Assembly: GCF_003148885.1 (NCBI RefSeq)
Contig: NZ_QGHD01000023.1
Coordinates: 1 to 40,661 of the forward strand
Reading direction: 5' to 3'
Length of the DNA stretch: 40,661 bases
From: Hallerella porci
GTDB lineage: Bacteria > Fibrobacterota > Fibrobacteria > Fibrobacterales > Fibrobacteraceae
The number at the start of each line of letters is the position of its first letter. Positions within the stretch are counted from its first letter, which is position 1. The notes under the pieces were generated by a model that searched no databases, was not told the DNA's origin, and saw only the letters and a list, made by a program, of their open reading frames with translations. Made by a program: the position numbers and the translations under genes. Shown here in pieces: positions 18,947-40,661 of the stretch.

Positions 18947-19575
18947 ACAAAAAAGAACGCGCAGAATTTATCGGCAAAACCTTAGACGAATTCTATCCGA
19001 ATCCGCCGATTCCGTTGCAATTTTCGAACACATTTACTTTTTTAGTCGCCGTCGTTTTGAGCGCCCAATGCACCGATAAAAAAGTCAATTCGGTAACGCC
19101 TGCGCTTTTTGCTCTCGCCGACTCTCCCGAAAAAATGGCGAAAATTTCTCAAGAAAAAATTTTGGAAATCATCCGCCCGTGTGGACTTGCTCCGATGAAA
19201 AGTGCGCACATCGCAGAACTTTCTAAAATTCTTCTCCGCGATTTTCACGGCGAAGTTCCGCATACATTTGAAGAACTCGAAAGTCTTCCCGGTGTCGGCC
19301 ATAAAACAGCGAGCGTTCTCATGAGTCAAGCGTTTGGAATGCCCGCGTTTCCTGTGGACACGCACATTCACCGCTTAGCGATGCGTTGGGGACTTTCGAA
19401 TGGGAAATCGGTTACGCAAACCGAAGCGGATTTGAAAAAACTTTTTCCCGAAGAAGAATGGAATCGTCGCCATTTGCAATTCATCTATTTCGGGCGTGAG
19501 CACTGCCCAGCGCGTCATCACGATGCGCAAAAATGCCCGATTTGTCACGTCGTCGGCTGCCGCGAAAAGAATTGA
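18943..19575 (+). CDS. nth: Endonuclease III (DNA glycosylase/AP lyase)
   Basis: Base-excision repair enzyme for oxidised pyrimidines. At 210 residues it has the helix-hairpin-helix LPGVGHKTASVL with catalytic K121, the FPVDTH segment with catalytic D139, and four C-terminal cysteines for the [4Fe-4S] cluster. Their spacing is C-x9-C-x2-C-x5-C, with three extra residues in the first gap compared with E. coli (C-x6-C-x2-C-x5-C). It starts inside the cysE stop (ATGA overlap) and stops 17 bp before the first lipoprotein gene, so it may lead the downstream envelope genes on one transcript. Confidence 0.95.
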   Translation: MNKKERAEFIGKTLDEFYPNPPIPLQFSNTFTFLVAVVLSAQCTDKKVNSVTPALFALADSPEKMAKISQEKILEIIRPCGLAPMKSAHIAELSKILLRDFHGEVPHTFEELESLPGVGHKTASVLMSQAFGMPAFPVDTHIHRLAMRWGLSNGKSVTQTEADLKKLFPEEEWNRRHLQFIYFGREHCPARHHDAQKCPICHVVGCREKN

Positions 19576-19592: not shown

Positions 19593-20240
19593 ATGCAAAT
19601 TTTTCAGCGGATTCTTTTTATCGTGAGCTGCATGCTTCTCTTCGCATGCTTAGAAACTCCCGATTCTCCCGCAAAAATCGGAAATCTATTTCGCCTTTCC
19701 GTTTGCCTTGAAAAAGATTCTTCGTGCACAATTCCTTTACAAGTTTCGCCCGGCGATTCTTTTACTGTATACGCGAAAACTTCGCCCGCAGAATTTGAAA
19801 ATTTGCTGCAATTTTCGTGGATAAAAAATGAAAAAGTTTTACATCGCGGAAAATTTTTTGCAACCGATACATCGCAAGTTCCCGATTCGTTAATCGCCAT
19901 CGATGACGAAGGAAATCGTCTCTCTTTTTCTTTAGATTTTACCTTGGATTCGCCGCCAAAACTTTCCCAAAAAATCATTCCCGAAAACGGGGATACTCTT
20001 GCCGGAAATTCTGCAACCGCATTTTTCTTTTCGTATTCCGCAACCGATGCCGATAAAAAAGATTCGCTTTTTTACACTCTCGAATGGGACTCTACATTTT
20101 TTTATGCGGGGAATTTGACGCAGATTTATCAATCGGGTTTTGCGCCGGGAAATCACACCTTCCGCGTTTATGTGCAAGACCGTTACGGCTTACGCGATTC
20201 TTCGGAAATCATTCACTTTTTTGTGGTGGAGGAATTGTGA
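19593..20240 (+). CDS. Lipoprotein A of the envelope cluster, Ig-like fold predicted
   Basis: Encodes 215 residues from ATG 19593, which is next to an AGGGG element. The signal (MQIFQRILFIVSCMLLFAC) ends in a lipobox (LFAC), giving a lipid-anchored envelope protein. The mature part is beta-rich and low in helix: FRLSVCLEKDSSCTIPLQVS, a SWIKNEKVLHRG segment, then a second module with PENGDTLAGNSATAFFFSY and PGNHTFRVYVQDRYGLRDSS. This looks like two immunoglobulin or cadherin-like domains, as in the next two products. An in-frame ATG at 19533 lies inside nth and would place the signal internally. It overlaps lipoprotein B by 4 nt (GTGA). Function unknown. Confidence 0.8.
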   Translation: MQIFQRILFIVSCMLLFACLETPDSPAKIGNLFRLSVCLEKDSSCTIPLQVSPGDSFTVYAKTSPAEFENLLQFSWIKNEKVLHRGKFFATDTSQVPDSLIAIDDEGNRLSFSLDFTLDSPPKLSQKIIPENGDTLAGNSATAFFFSYSATDADKKDSLFYTLEWDSTFFYAGNLTQIYQSGFAPGNHTFRVYVQDRYGLRDSSEIIHFFVVEEL

Positions 20241-21769
20241 AAGCAAAAATTTTTCTCTGCCTTTGGATGATTTTTTTCATCGCTTGTTCGGACGATAGCA
20301 TTTCTTTTAACGCAAACGATGCCGAAGCGGTTTCTGTCAAAGCTTATTTTTCGCGCCTCGGTGATTCGACAAATACCCGCGTCAAAGCCGATACGATTTT
20401 ACCGACGGATAGTATTCTTTTGATTGCGCTCATTGAGCCGTCGCGTTCCATCCGCATGGAAAATTTTTATTGGCAAATTGACAACGGGAAAAAATTTTCA
20501 GAATTTTCGCACCGCACTCTCGTTTCTCAATCGGGAATGCACGTCGCCAAATTCGTTTTACTCGATCGCTTTGCCGATACACTTTCGGACAGCGTGACAT
20601 TTTGGACTGCGCCCATTCCCGTTCTCGATTTAGAAAATTTTATTCCGCGAAACGGCAGCGAAATTTCAGCAAACGCAAAAATTTCTTTTGCTTGGAATGC
20701 GCTTGAAACAAATCCATTTGCCGAAACGAATTATCATTTTTCATTGCGCTGCGGCAAAAAAATTCTCGCAGACACTATTCTCTCTTCGCCACAATTTTCG
20801 CCAAAATTTTCATTGCCTTCTTTAGAAAACTGCACTTGGGAAGTTTATGCGCAAGATGATTTTGCCCGCGTTTCTTTCGACACATTGCGAGCGAATTTCG
20901 TCACCGAAAGCGCCGATTCTTCTTCGCGCGGCGCAACCCTTTTCCGCATTCAATCCGCTCTTTCTCAAAATGAAAAATTCGAATTTCAACTGTGGAATTC
21001 CAAAAAAGAAATCATTTCTGCAGATTCTCTTTTGATCGATTGGGACAATTCTTTGCTCACGATGAAAAATCTTCCCGCAGGTAATTATCGCATCTTTTTC
21101 CGTCATGAAAAATTCCACGATTATCAAAGCGATACCATTTCTTTCGCCGTAAAAAGTCGTCAAATTTCTTCGTATGCAATTTCGATTCAAGATACGATAA
21201 AACCTTACATTCTCTGCAATGATTGTGAAAATAATACATTCCTTTTCCGCGACACTTTAAAATTTTCAATCATCGAAAACGGCCCCGCCATTTCACCGAA
21301 AAAAATCCGCGTTGTCATCGACGGCGAAGCTTATTCCGCTTGGGAAATTTTAAACGATACGCTTCAAATTTTTACCGCAGAAATTTCTCCCGCTCTCATT
21401 TCGCATCCGATTACCATTTCGGTAACCGATCAAGCGGGGAATTTTTCCAAAGAACAATTTTCTTTATCGCCGAAAAATTTATGCGTTCAAACTTTTTCGG
21501 ATACGCTTGTAGAAAAAAATACCACATTAAAAATTCCCATTCAAAATGCTTGTCCGCATTTAACACCGAAGCGTTTCTTTTGGGATATTGATGGCGACGG
21601 TTCTTGGGACGGCGAAGCCGCTGCCGACGGAAAACAATCCGCCGAAAAAACTTTTTCTGGTTCCCTTTTTCAAAATCCCGAGATGACGATTCGCGTTTAC
21701 ATTCAATACGAAAGCGGTGCTCGTTTTGAGAATCATTTCACCCTTTATGTCAACGGAGTTTCTGGATGA
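20237..21769 (+). CDS. Lipoprotein B of the envelope cluster, multi-Ig-like
   Basis: Encodes 510 residues from GTG 20237, which has GGAGG at 20228-20232 and overlaps the previous stop (GTGA). An ATG start further upstream would remove the signal. The signal ends in FFIAC, a lipobox, followed by an acidic SDD. The beta-rich mature part seems built of several Ig-like units: the middle carries AGNYRIFFRHEKFHDYQSDT, and the later part IRVVIDGEAYSAW and ISVTDQAGNFS. The end has a WDIDGDGSWDGEA segment, reminiscent of PKD or calcium-binding loops. The late module recurs in lipoprotein C, so the two are paralogous there. Overlaps lipoprotein C by 4 nt (ATGA). Confidence 0.82.
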   Translation: MKAKIFLCLWMIFFIACSDDSISFNANDAEAVSVKAYFSRLGDSTNTRVKADTILPTDSILLIALIEPSRSIRMENFYWQIDNGKKFSEFSHRTLVSQSGMHVAKFVLLDRFADTLSDSVTFWTAPIPVLDLENFIPRNGSEISANAKISFAWNALETNPFAETNYHFSLRCGKKILADTILSSPQFSPKFSLPSLENCTWEVYAQDDFARVSFDTLRANFVTESADSSSRGATLFRIQSALSQNEKFEFQLWNSKKEIISADSLLIDWDNSLLTMKNLPAGNYRIFFRHEKFHDYQSDTISFAVKSRQISSYAISIQDTIKPYILCNDCENNTFLFRDTLKFSIIENGPAISPKKIRVVIDGEAYSAWEILNDTLQIFTAEISPALISHPITISVTDQAGNFSKEQFSLSPKNLCVQTFSDTLVEKNTTLKIPIQNACPHLTPKRFFWDIDGDGSWDGEAAADGKQSAEKTFSGSLFQNPEMTIRVYIQYESGARFENHFTLYVNGVSG

Positions 21770-23121
21770 AAAAAATTTTTCTGTTGACATTTTTTCTAAT
21801 CTTCTTCGTGAATTGCGGAGACGATTCGCACGTACATTTTGACGATGTGCCAGCACTCAAATCGGGCATCACCTTTGTGCCTTTCACTTATTCCGGCACT
21901 TCATATGGTTCATTTTCTGGTTACCGCGAAATAGAAATTCTCCAAGGCGAATCGGGGCGTTTCAGCGCCAACATTCAAATCAACGGAAACCGCATCGCAT
22001 ACGATTACATTTCGGATTATGTGAAAAATTTCATTTGGAATTTTGGAAAAGAATCTGCGATTACATCAGCGATTGCCAAGACATTTCCTGACACCGGAAT
22101 TTTTCCCATCATCTTAAAAACCGTTGACTATTTTGACGATACACTTCGCGACACTTTAACTTTATATGTCACAAATCCGCTTCATGTGACGCCGCAATTT
22201 CCAGCAAATGGTTACAATCAATTTGACGCACTCGATTCAAACGGAATCACTTTTGAAGTCAAAACCGAAGGCATTCATTCTTGGAAAAACGTCGAATGTC
22301 TGCTTTATTTTTCGATGGAAAAATCCCTCCTTTGGACATATCCTTACGACACCATTCCTTGCAACGGAAAATATCATTTTCCGGGTCCACTTTTTATCGG
22401 CGATCCTGCGTATCTTTCGGACACTTCTTTCGCCTTCTTCTGGGGAGTTGTCGCGCATGTTCCCGAAACAAATTACGCCTTTAACATCGACACTTCTCTT
22501 GTGCAAACTTTTTATACTGCGCTAACGCAAACCGAAACGGCAGAACTCATCATTCCGATTTGGTATCGGTCACTTTCTACGGGGCGTTCGCCTTCGGGAA
22601 AATTGATTTTGCAAAATGAAAACGGCGACACTTTGGCGATGCAGAAAATTTCCGAAAATCCGTCCACGCTGAGTTTTAAAAAATTAAAAGCGGGAAAAAA
22701 TTTTCATCTGACGATTTCCGATTCTCTTTTAACAGAATATTCTTCATTCGAAACTCAATTTGATTTGCCCAAAGCGACGTATAATGTTCTCGATACAATT
22801 GTTTTGCGCGATACTGTTCCGCCGCAATTTTCTCCGAATAAGATGACCTTTGCTCAAGGCGATTCCATTCGATTTTCCCTTTTCGATGCAGGCTCGGGAA
22901 TTGCAAATAATTCCGTTCGCATTCTCATCGATGGCGAAGCGATTGAACGCACGATTCGCCAAGATGAAGTTCGCTTCTTGCCTTCTTGCAAAAACCGCTG
23001 CATTTTATCGCTTTCGCTGCGCGATTATGCGGGAAATTTAAGTGCGCCGATTTTGTGGACTCTTCAAAATAAAAAAGATGCGTTAACTCTTGCGGGTCCT
23101 TTTAATCCGGAGGATTTATGA
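21766..23121 (+). CDS. Lipoprotein C of the envelope cluster, paralogous to lipoprotein B
   Basis: Encodes 451 residues. The signal MKKIFLLTFFLIFFVNC ends in a lipobox-type FVNC and is followed by GDDSH. The mature protein is beta-rich, with an early IWNFGKESAITSAIAKTFPD unit like a PKD-type domain (compare the WQIDNGKKFSEF stretch in lipoprotein B). A later unit contains KLKAGKNFHLTISDSLL, and a C-terminal module contains VRILIDGEAIERT and SLRDYAGNLSAP, which matches the late module of B. It starts in the stop of B and ends in the start of the PEGA gene (both ATGA), so translation is coupled across four genes. Function unknown; structural or binding roles at the cell surface are plausible. 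Confidence 0.82.
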   Translation: MKKIFLLTFFLIFFVNCGDDSHVHFDDVPALKSGITFVPFTYSGTSYGSFSGYREIEILQGESGRFSANIQINGNRIAYDYISDYVKNFIWNFGKESAITSAIAKTFPDTGIFPIILKTVDYFDDTLRDTLTLYVTNPLHVTPQFPANGYNQFDALDSNGITFEVKTEGIHSWKNVECLLYFSMEKSLLWTYPYDTIPCNGKYHFPGPLFIGDPAYLSDTSFAFFWGVVAHVPETNYAFNIDTSLVQTFYTALTQTETAELIIPIWYRSLSTGRSPSGKLILQNENGDTLAMQKISENPSTLSFKKLKAGKNFHLTISDSLLTEYSSFETQFDLPKATYNVLDTIVLRDTVPPQFSPNKMTFAQGDSIRFSLFDAGSGIANNSVRILIDGEAIERTIRQDEVRFLPSCKNRCILSLSLRDYAGNLSAPILWTLQNKKDALTLAGPFNPEDL

Positions 23122-23744
23122 AACTTTGGATTCTTTTCTGTTTTATTTTCTGCTTGACCGCTAACATTTTCGCTGCGGATTCGACGAAAACTTTGCGCAT
23201 TTCTACATGGCCTGCGGGCGCCGAAATTTATCTCGGAAATCGTCCCGAATCTTTTATTCAAAATGCCGAAATGCATTCGCCCGATTCCATTTCATTATCG
23301 CCAAATGATTCCACAGTCCGCGTTACTTTTTTTAAGCCCGGCTACGCCGACACAACCTTGGATATTCATCTCAAATCGCAGACAAAAAATTTTGTTTGGA
23401 TTGAACTTCAAGAAGAATCCGATTTGGATAAATTAGAATGGCAAGAAGCGATTCTCAATAAACGCGAAAATCGTCGCACCGGAAAACTTCTTTTCTTCGC
23501 GGGCACAATTCCGCTTGCGCTTTCGGGAACTTTCTTCGGGCTCGCTGAATGGAAATTTCACCAAGCGGACGACACCCGCAAAAAAATAGACAACAGTCTT
23601 ATCCGCGAAGGCAAACACTTTCAGCAGTTGCAAAAAGATTTTCACGACGATAAAAAAAGCGGCCGAAATTTTCGCACCGCTGCATTCGTTTCACTCGGCA
23701 TTAGCGCCGCTCTTTTAGGCGCTGCCGCCGTCTTTTATTTTTAG
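23118..23744 (+). CDS. PEGA-domain protein 1 with C-terminal membrane hairpin
   Basis: Encodes 208 residues. A signal peptide (MKLWILFCFIFCLTANIFAA) is followed by one PEGA-type beta-sandwich (residues 25-95, STWPAGAEIYLGN). A basic helical linker then leads to two hydrophobic segments (about 121-141 and 188-207) that flank a polar loop with EGKHFQQLQKDFHDD. PEGA domains occur outside the cytoplasm in surface or envelope proteins. The C-terminal hairpin is shared with the next protein. It begins in the stop of lipoprotein C and ends 9 bp before PEGA protein 2, so the two probably form one complex or assembly step with the lipoproteins. Confidence 0.8.
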   Translation: MKLWILFCFIFCLTANIFAADSTKTLRISTWPAGAEIYLGNRPESFIQNAEMHSPDSISLSPNDSTVRVTFFKPGYADTTLDIHLKSQTKNFVWIELQEESDLDKLEWQEAILNKRENRRTGKLLFFAGTIPLALSGTFFGLAEWKFHQADDTRKKIDNSLIREGKHFQQLQKDFHDDKKSGRNFRTAAFVSLGISAALLGAAAVFYF

Positions 23745-23753
23745 AAGGTTGAG

Positions 23754-25346
23754 ATGAAAAAAATTTTCCTTTTCTTTCTCAGTTTTTCATTATTCGTTTA
23801 CGCCGAAACACGCCGCGGTTTTCCCGTTTCCGTCGAACTTATCTCGGGCGCAAAACAGAACGCCGAACTCGTCGGTGCTGCAGGCGATGCACTTTTCCTC
23901 GGCGGATTTGTCGCCGATACATTTACCGTCGTAAAAATTTTAAAATCCCGCGTTGCGAATTTGCGCGATTCTAGTGGCAATGCGATTGTACTTGCAGAAG
24001 TGGATTCTCTTTTTACAAAAAATGATTCTGCGCACACCGATTCAATTCTCAAAGAAAATGTTCCTAGCGATTCTCTTCCCGATTCTTCGGCAAATATTTC
24101 ATCGATAGATTCTACCGCAAACGATTCCGCAACTGCGCCGCAAATTGAACAAATTAACCTTTCCAATAAAGCGCTCGTTTTCCCCGCATTACGTCGCCCG
24201 ATTGATTCTGCGCTCGCCGAACGCATTCGCATTTTACAACTGCAAACTCTTCACGAAAAAGGACTTTCGCCCATCGCGGTTTCTACAAACGATTTTCCGC
24301 AATGCAAAAATTCGCCATGCATCGCTCAAGAAGCCGAAAGTCGTAATGCACATTCCGTTTGGACTTTAGAAATTCAACCGGCAAAACACCAAGATAGTTT
24401 GGATCTTTTCTTGCATCAATTTTTAATTCAGAACAAATCGCAAACGACGGCAAAGCTGACCCTTTCTGCAAAAAATGCGACCACCGAATTATTAAGCGCA
24501 GACCGTTTTGTGCATTGGATGGAAAAAGCTCTCGGCATTTATCAAGAACCTGTCCGCGAAAAATCGACGAAAAGTTTCATCTATGTTGAAACGGATCCCG
24601 AAGGCGCAAACCTTTCGCGCAAAGGCGAAGATGTCATTTGTCAAACGCCGTGTGCATTCGCCATCGAAGACACGGGGAAAGTAGAACTCGAAGCATTTTG
24701 GGATGTGGAAAATACTTTGTGGGCAAATAAAGCGACGATTCGCCCGATTCCCGGTGACACCGCAAAAATCAATTTGCGTCTAAAACGCGTCAAGCCCGAA
24801 GTTGAAATTCACAGCGTCCCCGCTGGCGCACAAATTTACGAAGCCGAAGAAATCACTCCGCACAGTCGTCCCATCGGAAAAACGCCGAAAATTCTCACCA
24901 CACGCACTCCGGGTCCCGCCGAATTGCATCTATGGCGCGAAGGATTCCGCGATACCGTCATTCAATTCCGCGTCAGCGCAACGAGTAAAACCATCGTCGA
25001 AGTTCAACTGGACACTCTTCAATCCAAACAAGAATTGGAATCGCAAGCCGTCTTTCAGCAAATTCAAAAGCGCATTTTTTGGGGACATCTTTCTCTCGGC
25101 GTGTCAATTGCGCCCGCCGTCGCCGGTGGCATTCTCCTCTACATCGCCGAAAAAGACCGCGATAAAGCCCGCGACATTCGCGATGAACTCAAAATGCCAA
25201 GTTCTGGAGGCGGTGAACATTTCCAAAAATTAGTGGATAAAAATCATCGCTACGCCGACCGTTCTAAGACCGAACGCTATGTCGGCACCGGACTTTTGAT
25301 CTTTGCCGGCGGACTTTTAGCAGCGGGAATTGTTCTCTCGTTCTAA
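23754..25346 (+). CDS. PEGA-domain protein 2 with C-terminal membrane hairpin
   Basis: Encodes 530 residues after an AAGGTTGAG ribosome-binding site. A signal peptide (MKKIFLFFLSFSLFVYA) is followed by a small beta module (residues 20-85), a Ser/Asp-rich linker, and a mixed region (about 140-270) with a CKNSPCIAQEAE segment reminiscent of nucleotide-free receptor-like domains. Two PEGA modules follow: YVETDPEGANLSRKGEDVIC, and HSVPAGAQIYEAEEITPH with GKTPKIL. The C-terminus repeats the arrangement of PEGA protein 1: hydrophobic segment, loop with GGEHFQKLVDKNH, hydrophobic segment, then LAAGIVLSF. It is the last gene of the overlapped run; 79 bp separate it from the barrel protein. Confidence 0.82.
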   Translation: MKKIFLFFLSFSLFVYAETRRGFPVSVELISGAKQNAELVGAAGDALFLGGFVADTFTVVKILKSRVANLRDSSGNAIVLAEVDSLFTKNDSAHTDSILKENVPSDSLPDSSANISSIDSTANDSATAPQIEQINLSNKALVFPALRRPIDSALAERIRILQLQTLHEKGLSPIAVSTNDFPQCKNSPCIAQEAESRNAHSVWTLEIQPAKHQDSLDLFLHQFLIQNKSQTTAKLTLSAKNATTELLSADRFVHWMEKALGIYQEPVREKSTKSFIYVETDPEGANLSRKGEDVICQTPCAFAIEDTGKVELEAFWDVENTLWANKATIRPIPGDTAKINLRLKRVKPEVEIHSVPAGAQIYEAEEITPHSRPIGKTPKILTTRTPGPAELHLWREGFRDTVIQFRVSATSKTIVEVQLDTLQSKQELESQAVFQQIQKRIFWGHLSLGVSIAPAVAGGILLYIAEKDRDKARDIRDELKMPSSGGGEHFQKLVDKNHRYADRSKTERYVGTGLLIFAGGLLAAGIVLSF

Positions 25347-25425: not shown

Positions 25426-27003
25426 ATGATGCGTAAAATTTTACTCCCATTGCTTGCTGCAAGCTTGGCGTTCGGTGCTGACTTTGAACGTTCAAACTGG
25501 CATACTCAGACTTTTTTTCAGGTTGAACCTTACACTCCGATCACCTTCGAAGGAAAGGGGCAACTCTTAAACGAAAAAATCGACGAAGACGTTTACACCG
25601 TGCCGATGTCGCTCGGTTTCCTCTTCAGCCCGCTGTTTACTCCGCTTTTCAAAGCCGACATTCCATTTACCTTATGGCTCGGTGCCCAATTCGGTGAATT
25701 TCAATTCGGCGAAATTTCCTCCGGCGCGGATTATACCTATAACGGCGCACAATCGGGCAGCGGCAACGAACTCTCCTTTATGTCGTTTAATCCCGCTGGC
25801 CTCGCAGGTTTCTCGGTCAATTTAATCGGGAATTTGGACTTGCGCATCTTGGGCGGTATCGGTCTTCAATATTATCGTTTCGAAAATAAAGAAACCGCGA
25901 CGACGAAAACGCATTCGGAAACTTCTCTCAGCTACTTTGTCGAAGGCGGCTTAGAATATCGCATCGCCGAAATTTTCCGCGACGGCGACCTCAAAATCGG
26001 TTTGCATGTGAAAAAAGCCTTCAATAAAATTGAAGACATCAAAGCAACTCCGGAATACAAATCGAACACCGAAAATCTTTCTATCCCAGGCGCTTACTCG
26101 GGAGTTGAATTTACCAAAGTAGAAACCAAGCTTCCCGTACGCATCGGCCTTGAAATTTCTTTGGAATTCGGCAGAGAAAGTCGCCGCGACCGCAGAATGC
26201 GTTTTGCTCTCCGCGACCGCGATGCGCAGCTCCGCAACAATTCCGAAGTCAAAGACACTCTCTCGGATTGGGACTGCATGGCAATTGAACGCGATTACCG
26301 TTTCTTCCTCGAAAACGGTCAGTTGCCCGACATGAGCGAAAAATATACGAAGGCTCAGTTCAACGATGTCCTCGAAAGCTATCTCGCATTCTGCCATCCG
26401 GAAGATCTCGCGACGAAAGAACAACTTTACAGCACATTGGATTCGAACAAAGTCCAGTTGAAGGAATACCAAGTTTCTCAAGAAGATGCTCGTTACAAAC
26501 AAGTGATGGCATCGAACGATCCGGAAATGATGGAAATGTTCTTGCAATACTATCCGAATTCCGCGTATCGCAAAGACATCGAAGCCAAGCTCCAAGTCGT
26601 CGGCGATTACCAAATTTTCAAGAAGGCGCAAGAAGCGAATACATTTAAATCTTATTTGGATTACTTGTCCAACTTCCCGCAAGGTCAATTCCGCGACGAA
26701 GCCGAAGAATGCATTTTCCGCTTGGTGCAAGAAAGCAACCGCGAAAAAGATTATCAGATTTATCTGAAGCGTTTCCCGGACGGCCGTTTCGTGAACGAAG
26801 CCAATGCCGCTCTCCAAGAAATGCAAGCGCCTGCGACAAGTGCCGTCGAAAGCACTCCAGAACCGGAACAAGTCGAAGAGCCCGAAGAAGAGGAAGTTCA
26901 ACCAAAGGCAAAAGTTTCGAAATCCAAGAAATCTAAATCAAAAGCAAAAGCCAAATCCAAGGCAAAGCCGAAGAAAAAGACTTCTAAGAAAAAGAAAAAG
27001 TAA
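25426..27003 (+). CDS. Outer-membrane barrel protein with repeat domain and Lys-rich tail
   Basis: Encodes 525 residues from tandem ATGs (25426 and 25429). A signal peptide (MRKILLPLLAASLAFGA) is followed by a beta-barrel-like half (residues 20-265, with LDLRILGGIGLQYYRFENKE and PVRIGLEISLEFGRES). A helical half then has three related units with a Y-L-x-x-F/Y-P-x-G/S-x-F/Y core: MFLQYYPNSAYRKDIEAKL, LDYLSNFPQGQFRDEAEE and YQIYLKRFPDGRFVNEANAA. The end is an acidic/Pro stretch and then about 35 residues dominated by Lys, Ser and Ala, ending in five lysines. An outer-membrane barrel with a periplasmic or surface helical domain is the simplest reading. The tail could bind acidic polymers. It has its own terminator. 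Confidence 0.8.
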   Translation: MMRKILLPLLAASLAFGADFERSNWHTQTFFQVEPYTPITFEGKGQLLNEKIDEDVYTVPMSLGFLFSPLFTPLFKADIPFTLWLGAQFGEFQFGEISSGADYTYNGAQSGSGNELSFMSFNPAGLAGFSVNLIGNLDLRILGGIGLQYYRFENKETATTKTHSETSLSYFVEGGLEYRIAEIFRDGDLKIGLHVKKAFNKIEDIKATPEYKSNTENLSIPGAYSGVEFTKVETKLPVRIGLEISLEFGRESRRDRRMRFALRDRDAQLRNNSEVKDTLSDWDCMAIERDYRFFLENGQLPDMSEKYTKAQFNDVLESYLAFCHPEDLATKEQLYSTLDSNKVQLKEYQVSQEDARYKQVMASNDPEMMEMFLQYYPNSAYRKDIEAKLQVVGDYQIFKKAQEANTFKSYLDYLSNFPQGQFRDEAEECIFRLVQESNREKDYQIYLKRFPDGRFVNEANAALQEMQAPATSAVESTPEPEQVEEPEEEEVQPKAKVSKSKKSKSKAKAKSKAKPKKKTSKKKKK

Positions 27004-27044: not shown

Positions 27045-28610
27045 ATGAAAATCATGTTTCAGCCGATAAGTCTTTCGAGCAAATCGATTTTTGAAAAATA
27101 TCTGCGTGCGGCAAATAAACAATGCTGCGATTACGCCTTCGCCAATCTCTTTGCGTGGTCCAAGTATTACCAAACCGTTTGGTGCGAATTTGAAAATTTT
27201 CTGATTATCCGTTTTCACGTTGCAGGCTCCGAAAAATGGGCGTACTTAGAACCTCTCGGAACGGGCGACGCTACCGCAGCGATTCAATTTATCTTTCGCG
27301 ATGCCGCAAACGAAACGAAGCAGCCGGTGCGATTTTTTTCCATTTCACAAGAATTCGTAAACCGATACCAAGCTCTGCCCGAAATGCAAACGCAGCGATT
27401 TTACACCGACCGCAGTTTCGGCAATTACATTTACAGCCGCGAAAAATTAGCGCATCTCGCCGGGCGAAAACTCCATTCCAAGCGCAATCACATTACGCAA
27501 TTTGATAAGCGTTATCCGACCGCAAAATTTGAAATTTTAAATCCCGAAAAACACGCTGCAGCATTGCACAAGCTCATCACAAAGTGGTGTCAAACTCAAG
27601 AAGTCGAAACGTCGACGATTCGCCACGAAAAAGAAATGATTGAAAATTCCCTAGCCCATTACGCGGAATTAAATTTATTCGGCATTCTTTTATCCGTTGA
27701 CGAAAACGCAATCGCCTTTTCTTTTGGTTCTCAAATTAACCAAAACACTTTTTACGTTCATGTCGAAAAAGCGGACACGCAATACGAAGGCGCTTACGCC
27801 AAAATCAATCAGCTCATGGCAGAAAATTTGCCCGCAGAAATTGAATGGATTAACCGCGAAGAAGATATGGGACTTTCCTCTTTGCGCAAATCCAAGTTGT
27901 CGTATTTTCCCGATGCGATTTCCGCAGAATATTTTTCGACGAGCAAAAATTCCACAGAGAATGACATTTGGGAATTATGGCAAAAAGCCTTCCCCGAAGA
28001 TTCCGATGAATTTCTCGCGACTTTCATTTTTCCTTATTCCAATCCGTCCACGCAAATTACGCATTACGAAAACGGAAAACTCGCCTCGATGCTTCACCTC
28101 ATTTCCTTTTCTAGCAAATGGGGAAAAGTCGCCTACATTTACGGACTCGCCACCGATCCAGAATTCAGCGGAAAAGGTTTTGCCAAAAAAGTCATCTTCA
28201 ACGCGATGCAGCGCGCGAAAGAAAACGGCTGCACTTGCATTTGCGCCATTCAAGCCAATCTCCAATTTACCGCATGGCAAACGCAATTTGATTTTACGCC
28301 GCCGAGCGTCACCATTCAATTTCAAACCGAAGATGGTTTTGATTTTGGCGGCGAAGAAGAAGACATCCATCGCGGCATTTTCCGCATTCTCGACGTTCAA
28401 ACTTTTCTGCAAAAATTTGCCGCCACGCATTCCGATTCTACCGAAAAAATTTCCGTAAACGATTCCATTTTCCTAGAAAACACAGGAGTTTACTCCCTCC
28501 AAAACGGAAAAACCTCCAAAATTTCAAATCTCCCCGAAAAATCCATTCAAACCATCAACGCATTTTTTCAAAATAATGTTGAAAATGAGAAATTAGGAAT
28601 GAGGAGTTAG
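27045..28610 (+). CDS. DUF2156 domain fused to a GNAT N-acetyltransferase domain
   Basis: Encodes 521 residues with no signal or membrane helix. Residues 10-300 resemble DUF2156, the catalytic domain of lysylphosphatidylglycerol synthases: YAFANLFAWSKYYQT at the N-terminus, KLHSKRNHITQFDKRYP in the middle, and EWINREEDMGLSSLRKSKLSY. Both halves of that domain have acyltransferase folds. Residues 310-430 form a GNAT domain with the acetyl-CoA loop in DPEFSGKGFAKKVI near residue 375. A full LPG synthase would have a membrane part, which is absent, so a soluble aminoacyl or acetyl transferase is likely. Starts are ATG 27045 or 27054; neither has a Shine-Dalgarno. Substrate unknown. Confidence 0.82.
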   Translation: MKIMFQPISLSSKSIFEKYLRAANKQCCDYAFANLFAWSKYYQTVWCEFENFLIIRFHVAGSEKWAYLEPLGTGDATAAIQFIFRDAANETKQPVRFFSISQEFVNRYQALPEMQTQRFYTDRSFGNYIYSREKLAHLAGRKLHSKRNHITQFDKRYPTAKFEILNPEKHAAALHKLITKWCQTQEVETSTIRHEKEMIENSLAHYAELNLFGILLSVDENAIAFSFGSQINQNTFYVHVEKADTQYEGAYAKINQLMAENLPAEIEWINREEDMGLSSLRKSKLSYFPDAISAEYFSTSKNSTENDIWELWQKAFPEDSDEFLATFIFPYSNPSTQITHYENGKLASMLHLISFSSKWGKVAYIYGLATDPEFSGKGFAKKVIFNAMQRAKENGCTCICAIQANLQFTAWQTQFDFTPPSVTIQFQTEDGFDFGGEEEDIHRGIFRILDVQTFLQKFAATHSDSTEKISVNDSIFLENTGVYSLQNGKTSKISNLPEKSIQTINAFFQNNVENEKLGMRS

Positions 28611-39640: not shown

Positions 39641-40501
39641 CTATTCTGCTAAGACAGGGCGAACAGAGCGACCTATGCGGCGGTGTATGTCCTTCATGGT
39701 GCTGTAACCCGAAAGGAAGTTAAAGATGTAAGCGTAATTGCTGGTGGCCGGAGTAGAGCTCCAGTAGTAGCCGCGACTGCCTACATCCAACAAGCTATCG
39801 CCACGGTTCCCTGCTGCAGGGAGGAATATGCTGTTACCATTTGGATCTGTTACCATAGCACCATCAACACCATTTTTGGTTGTCCATTCCCATGTGCATT
39901 TTGATCCCAATTCATCCATTTGTTCGTATGTCGGCATTTTCCATTTGACGCCCCAGTTGGCAGTGGCTGCATCGTAATTTGCATTGCCTGCAATGTCGCC
40001 TAAATTACTATTTCCACAAGTTTGGCAATTTTCTGTGGTGTATTCTGCTTTTGGTTCTATTTCACCCCAAGCAAAGTAATCGCCAGAATCTTCTGGTTTT
40101 TTTGCACCCACATTTATGTTCGCCCATTTAGTGCCACTTGGGAGTCTTAAATCAACAGCGGTGTCTAAAAAGCTGCTCGATGAAATTTCAAATAACGCAC
40201 TTGAACTAGAACTCGAATAAGCAAGTCCAGAATTTTGATTTATCCAACCGCCATTTAAACAAGTGTAAACAGCATTACTGTTTATCACATAAACACTAAC
40301 ACCGTTATTATCAAATGAACAAGGTACAAGATCACTTTCAGCAGATACTTGAATAAGATTGCCTCCGGAAACAAGTCCGGTATTTTGATTTATCCAATCG
40401 CCATTTAAACAAGTGTAAACAGCATCACTGTTTATCACATAAACACTAACACCGTTATTGTCAAATGAACAAGGTACAAGATCACTTTCAGCAGATACTT
40501 G
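39641..40501 (-). pseudogene. FISUMP-like surface protein, 5' end removed by IS insertion
   Basis: 286 codons remain, open up to the IS junction at 40501/40502, and the IS supplies a fortuitous MDRV start at 40513. The fragment begins with two near-identical 50- and 43-residue units (QVSAESDLVPCSFDNNGVSV, then a VYTCLNGxWINQNxGL part, two Cys each), followed by a Ser-rich linker. The FISUMP-like domain follows: VDLRLPSGTKWANINVGA, GDYFAWGEIEPK, WKMPTYEQMDEL, RGYYWSSTPATSN and a terminal RRIGRSVRPVLAE. This family is abundant in Fibrobacter and related to lectin-like folds. The missing N-terminus would hold the signal peptide, so the fragment is probably not exported. Confidence 0.8.
40223..40501 (-). 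repeat. 150-bp period tandem duplication inside the FISUMP-like gene
   Basis: The stretch 40372-40501 matches 40222-40351 shifted by exactly 150 bp, with about four differences over about 120 bp, and codes for two copies of a Cys-pair unit. Further copies may have lain beyond the IS junction. Confidence 0.85.
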
Positions 40502-40661
40502 GACTCTATCCATAAAACTGTGTCATTCACCACCAAGCATCATTTGAAAAATGATGTAAATTGAGGAACTATGATGACACACGAAGAATATAAAGAGATG
40601 ATCAAAAAAGCAGCATCTCAGTTCAAAACAGGAAAGCCAATTTTTGGCAAAGACGGAGCAT
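40502..40661 (+). mobile_element. Insertion sequence end (right contig edge), transposase-proximal side
   Basis: Inverted copy of positions 1-160 with one mismatch (40533). The tip GACTCTATCCATAAAACTGT borders the cut FISUMP-like gene. The base outside the tip differs from that at the left junction, as expected for two separate insertions. The element continues beyond the window. Confidence 0.8.
40571..40661 (+). CDS. Transposase, N-terminal 30 codons only (probable IS256/mutator family)
   Basis: Starts at tandem ATG ATG (40571 and 40574) after GAGGA and runs off the window; identical in product to the left-edge fragment. It is preceded by the 8-bp-arm hairpin of the IS end (40540-40558). 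Catalytic residues are not visible. Confidence 0.6.
   Translation, partial: MMTHEEYKEMIKKAASQFKTGKPIFGKDGA

Follow-up and report, generated by a model that had tools for sequence, protein, structure and literature searches.

Several envelope systems contain parts that resemble those of the locus described here. TolB-N and LpoB have roles in outer-membrane constriction and peptidoglycan synthesis, and PelC forms a ring beneath the PelB barrel. In the Sus-like systems of Bacteroidota, several lipoproteins are encoded together with SusC and SusD. For B. fragilis and F. johnsoniae, the lipoprotein export signals SDDDD and SDDFE have been described (PMC5080379). The PEGA domain (Pfam PF08308) is described in PMC2447325.

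The window, meaning the whole 40,661-nucleotide stretch of Hallerella porci DNA that was analysed (contig C23 of a 2.85 Mb genome), carries five genes, A to E, that overlap or nearly touch (Table 1). Their surroundings are housekeeping genes; the stop of nth lies at 19575, and A begins after a gap of 17 bp. A and B overlap by 4 nt (GTGA), as do B and C, and C and D (ATGA at both). D and E are separated by 9 bp, and in the window a further 79 bp separates E from gene F. The first-pass annotation had counted four coupled junctions followed by a 9-bp gap; the tight packing and the gap stand, and the 4-nt overlaps number three. The coupling exceeds chance, with the order unchanged in 50 loci and the A/B overlap kept in 46 of them.

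Table 1. Coordinates of the five-gene unit, its domains and associated genes (window positions unless a locus is named).
Feature	Position	Strand	Description
A-E cluster	19593-25346	+	five genes, overlapping or near-touching
A	19593..20240	+	lipoprotein, 215 aa, lipobox LFAC; A/B/C family
B	20237..21769	+	lipoprotein, 510 aa, GTG start, lipobox FIAC
C	21766..23121	+	lipoprotein, 451 aa; stacked PKD/Ig-like domains
PKD-like domain of C (residues 28-138)	21847..22179	+	structure match, predicted model
D	23118..23744	+	208 aa; signal peptide, PEGA-like domain, C-terminal hydrophobic hairpin
E	23754..25346	+	530 aa; signal peptide, LSm-like, PelC/FlgT/TolB/LpoB-type, two PEGA, helical hairpin
LSm/SH3-like beta domain of E (residues 23-72)	23820..23969	+	weak Hfq and RimP structure rows
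PelC/FlgT/TolB/LpoB-type alpha/beta domain of E (residues 137-264)	24162..24545	+	structure match
Two PEGA (transthyretin-like) domains of E	24573..25013	+	first with invariant C-x3-C pair
C-terminal helical hairpin of E	25026..25343	+	hydrophobic segments 446-464, 510-528; invariant last Phe
F	25426..27003	+	outer-membrane barrel, periplasmic helical repeats, Lys-rich tail
ECF sigma factors of genus g6	L049:11617-12075, L052:12459-13007, L069:11390-11857, L070:7473-8006
ECF sigma factors of genus g6 (continued)	L138:7610-8104, L141:4660-5121, L143:5809-6270

This unit recurs across the Fibrobacteraceae, its order kept in nearly all of the gut and rumen Fibrobacter relatives compared. E was searched for in 61 relatives and later in 168 genomes of the phylum, and gene neighbourhoods were read in 40 stretches of relatives plus 32 named loci, with a 6-row alignment of E as the query for related loci. 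The closest named relatives in that search were Fibrobacter intestinalis ATCC 43854 and rumen Fibrobacter MAGs. Nearly every family member has a full-length E, and none was found outside the family among the 168 genomes; among the members without it are incomplete genomes and a case at a contig edge. All 50 loci of the main architecture (about 45 distinct genomes once duplicate records are allowed for) have the order A-B-C-D-E on a single strand. The 4-nt A/B overlap is kept in 46 of these loci, and the D/E gap ranges from -1 to 10 bp wherever both genes could be called. E is cut by a contig end in L064, and the D genes of L086 and L095, missed by the ORF caller, are present when the frame is read. 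Thus the genes, far from being scattered among relatives, keep the same order. The flanks vary. In the genus of the window nth lies upstream, while other genera have xseB with an ABC ATPase, or a DedA (VTT) protein, beside the unit. Constant order despite different flanks shows that A to E travel as a unit, and these five genes are the conserved unit. Mean identity across orthologues is 34-44%. The pairwise divergences of the five products correlate (r 0.92-0.97), as is expected of any vertically inherited genes.

Gene F, also noted at the outset as a barrel with a lysine-rich tail, is real but optional. It occurs in 18 of the 61 relatives, compared with 41 that have an E match. F adjoins E in four genera, is missing from several A-E genomes (e.g., G033) and is unlinked to the unit in G015. 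Its mean identity (68%) is far above that of A to E. For these reasons F is a separable, associated neighbour outside the core. Downstream of F, window positions 27045-28610 encode an N-terminal PF09924 (phosphatidylglycerol lysyltransferase C-terminal-type) domain and a GNAT domain. The minus-strand ORF 39641-40513 contains a tandem repeat (window positions 40222-40501) whose 150-bp unit is present in 1.9 copies with 96% matches.

All five products had been annotated as exported, three as lipoproteins and two as hairpin proteins, and their lipoboxes, signal peptides and C-terminal hydrophobic helices bear this out. The lipoboxes of A and B are clear; that of C is atypical in the window (FVNC) and has the standard form in nearly all orthologues. 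The Ig-like parts proposed from the sequence are confirmed for C by its AlphaFold model (pLDDT 88, pTM 0.64), which is a row of beta-sandwich domains. Its first domain matches the PKD domain of ColG (2y72) with Z 10.4 and rmsd 2.1 over 82 residues, the remaining domains resemble Ig/Fn3 stacks, and the top structure matches are PKD and Ig/Fn3 stacks. With its lipobox and predicted PKD fold, C belongs with the PKD/Ig-like lipoproteins. Comparison of C with viral folds gave generic Ig/Fn3 rows and nothing else. In nearly all members the domains of C fall under the Pfam thresholds.

The mature N-terminus of B in the window is CSDDS. This resembles the Bacteroidetes lipoprotein export signal, in which the lipidated Cys is directly followed by a polar residue and then two acidic ones, although that signal is not established in Fibrobacterota. 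Acidic residues follow the cysteine in 27 of 32 B sequences, 22 of 33 C sequences (weak), 4 of 13 A sequences (none) and 25 of 60 other predicted lipoproteins, an enrichment whose test overstates significance because the orthologues are related. In the reading preferred below, B and probably C would be displayed at the cell surface.

D and E each start with a signal peptide and carry two hydrophobic helices at the C-terminus. The earlier assignment of both as PEGA proteins holds for E, where the domain scores 28.1 bits against a Pfam gathering score of 20.8 and is matched in 29 of 30 orthologues. In D it lies under the cut-off (16.9 bits, E = 0.006). The E model has pLDDT 81 and pTM 0.43, so that the placement of its domains is uncertain. 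A disordered linker follows the LSm-like domain in this model. The alpha/beta domain after it matches PelC (Z 9.5), FlgT (9.3) and TolB (9.0) with rmsd 3.2-3.5 over 106-117 residues, and LpoB is among its Foldseek rows. Unrelated aminoacyl-tRNA synthetase domains come next at Z about 8; since such middling values are common, residues 137-264 are assigned a fold class only and no function. No sequence match for this region was found in Pfam, NCBIfam or the PDB. Cysteines 184/189 and 296/300 of E, invariant or nearly so, suggest disulfides. The charges flanking the D and E hairpins are indecisive as to an inner-membrane placement.

The last residue is Phe in 68/68 E-type ORFs (some of them duplicates) and in 49/50 D-type proteins; the window codons are 25341-25343 (E) and 23739-23741 (D). 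It ends a predicted hydrophobic helix and holds even in distant members and an orphan paralogue (L033, L055-L066). Such a terminal Phe recalls that of outer-membrane barrels, but D and E are not barrels.

Two reported F. succinogenes entries with consecutive numbers were considered as D and E. FSU_1783 is a 'PEGA protein' of 20.24 kDa (PMC4619616), and FSU_1784 is an 'LpoB/LptE lipoprotein' with a -3.35-fold change on cellulose (PMC6851124). The pairing was rejected as evidence, as D is about 23 kDa in relatives of genus g2. The likelier counterpart of FSU_1783 is another small secreted PEGA protein of this genus, encoded at L135:3040-3576 and L136:2452-2997; at 178 aa and 19.15 kDa, with a Lys-rich C-terminal tail, it fits better than D.

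The five genes belong to two families, a relationship beyond the first-pass account. In profile searches the models of A, B and C match one another, and D pairs with the C-terminal half of E. With only two families present, A-E can be viewed as an amplified two-component module. A reduced version is found in genus g6, where the unit is lipoprotein-lipoprotein-E. There the lipoproteins have about 200-280 aa, E lacks the LSm domain and D is absent. Fewer, shorter lipoproteins accompany a trimmed E and the loss of D, so both halves shrink jointly. Other loci have an E-like gene followed by one very large lipoprotein (1197 aa in L061, 1617 aa in L063, 1748 aa in L065) or by one of 532 aa (L066). 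Scored with profiles from the main clade alone, these lipoproteins match B (3.5e-13 for L061, 6e-11 for L063 and 1.6e-8 for L066) or A (7e-5 for the L065 giant); the neighbouring lipoprotein of L062 has no match to the main-clade profiles. The simplest history suggested by these matches is tandem duplication of an older pair, a lipoprotein and a PEGA-hairpin protein. An orphan E paralogue also occurs in the genome of the window (L033:8881-10335; match G000:C5:27067-27831), and it is kept in relatives near an RsmB-like methyltransferase with no adjoining A-C lipoproteins.

Our preferred reading, held at about even confidence, is that A-E form a lineage-specific envelope complex in which PKD/Ig lipoproteins of the outer membrane and PEGA proteins anchored in the inner membrane support a surface structure. 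A, B and C would sit in the outer membrane as lipoproteins, at least B and C facing outside. D and E would be secreted to the periplasm, where the C-terminal hairpin would anchor them, most probably to the inner membrane. The PelC/FlgT/TolB/LpoB-type and PEGA domains of E could then extend toward the outer membrane to retain or position the lipoproteins there, and the whole set would be a trans-envelope support for a surface structure used in attachment or in cell-cell or cell-fibre contact. The gene overlaps would make translation of the genes interdependent and so set the proportions of the subunits, and the set may have arisen from a tandemly duplicated lipoprotein and PEGA-hairpin pair. 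Operon grouping also occurs for proteins that make no contact. The analysis establishes gene order, paralogy, conservation, predicted folds and the joint reduction in g6, while topology, surface display, the complex itself and its role are inferred. Fibre adhesion, wall tethering and a gliding-like role had all been raised as speculative possibilities for these genes; none of them is singled out by the results. A fuller version, a trans-envelope machine for plant-fibre contact in which surface PKD/Ig lipoproteins are held by the PEGA-hairpin proteins and the last Phe is a sorting or assembly signal, is rather unlikely.

The most serious rival, still an unlikely one, is an envelope tether or wall scaffold in which periplasm-facing lipoproteins, together with the LpoB/TolB-like domain of E, tie the two membranes and the peptidoglycan to one another and so serve envelope stability instead of surface contact. 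The likeness of an E domain to TolB-N and LpoB suits such a function, and the near-universal presence of E in the family would fit a housekeeping role. However, a peptidoglycan-binding domain (OmpA-C, LysM or SPOR) is absent from all five products, and fast-evolving Ig/PKD stacks (at the 34-44% identity given above) together with the acidic N-terminus of B better suit exposed proteins.

Surface sensing is quite improbable. Here the lipoproteins would pick up an external signal, which the D/E hairpins would relay to the cytoplasm to control transcription. The idea draws on the divergent ECF sigma factor that adjoins the reduced operon in seven g6 genomes (Table 1), and on a TIGR02147/DUF4423 protein encoded upstream in two other genomes. 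Genus g6 is a side branch, however, and neither a sigma factor nor a kinase lies beside A-E in the clade of the window or in most genera. The hairpin loop is also short and has no known anti-sigma domain, the one weak RseA_C match occurring in 1 of 30 members.

Decidedly improbable is export of a polysaccharide or protein, with E as a PelC/CsgG-like ring under a channel (F where present) and A-C as accessories. PelC does give the best structure rows for E, and F, a barrel with periplasmic repeats, is next to E in some genera; but a common fold is no proof of function, the unit lacks a glycosyltransferase or synthase, and F is missing or unlinked in the genomes already named. That A-E are merely unrelated envelope genes, co-transcribed by chance among housekeeping genes and, in the window, just past nth, is extremely unlikely, as conservation of the five-gene order between differing flanks across the family and the joint reduction in g6 speak strongly against it.

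Fibrobacter is a leading fibre degrader, yet how it attaches so closely to cellulose is poorly explained. An uncharacterised envelope unit of five genes that is near-universal in the family offers a small and concrete set of targets for knock-out. The putative ancestral module of lipoprotein and PEGA-hairpin protein also gives a handle on the many unannotated lipoproteins of the phylum.

The early impression that the cluster matches no named system holds, as no sequence match of A-E to a characterised system was found. PDB sequence-profile searches gave no match for C, E or F, and Pfam and NCBIfam detected among A-F neither a SusC/SusD homologue nor Por/Sov/Gld components of type IX secretion and gliding. 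No paper connecting the PEGA domain with F. succinogenes or Fibrobacteres, and no description of C-type lipoproteins arranged with D/E, was found in the open-access literature. Each piece is a known fold or domain family, and the combination is undescribed in the open-access literature searched. PelC, FlgT, TolB-N and LpoB share a fold with E residues 137-264 without a sequence match, and the A-E unit has no pel, flagellar or Tol-Pal genes; the gene for a genuine LpoB (PF13036) lies at another place in the genome of the window. C, like PKD lipoproteins and tandem Ig/Fn3 adhesins, is a stack of beta-sandwiches, with the PKD domain first. As in Sus-like systems, several lipoproteins are encoded together and a CSDDS-type N-terminus is present, but PEGA-hairpin partners take the place of SusC/SusD. 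Among PEGA proteins, E is a clear member and D a weaker copy. What differs here is that E joins the domain to LSm-like and PelC/TolB-type domains and to a C-terminal hydrophobic hairpin, and both D and E share an operon with paralogous lipoproteins.
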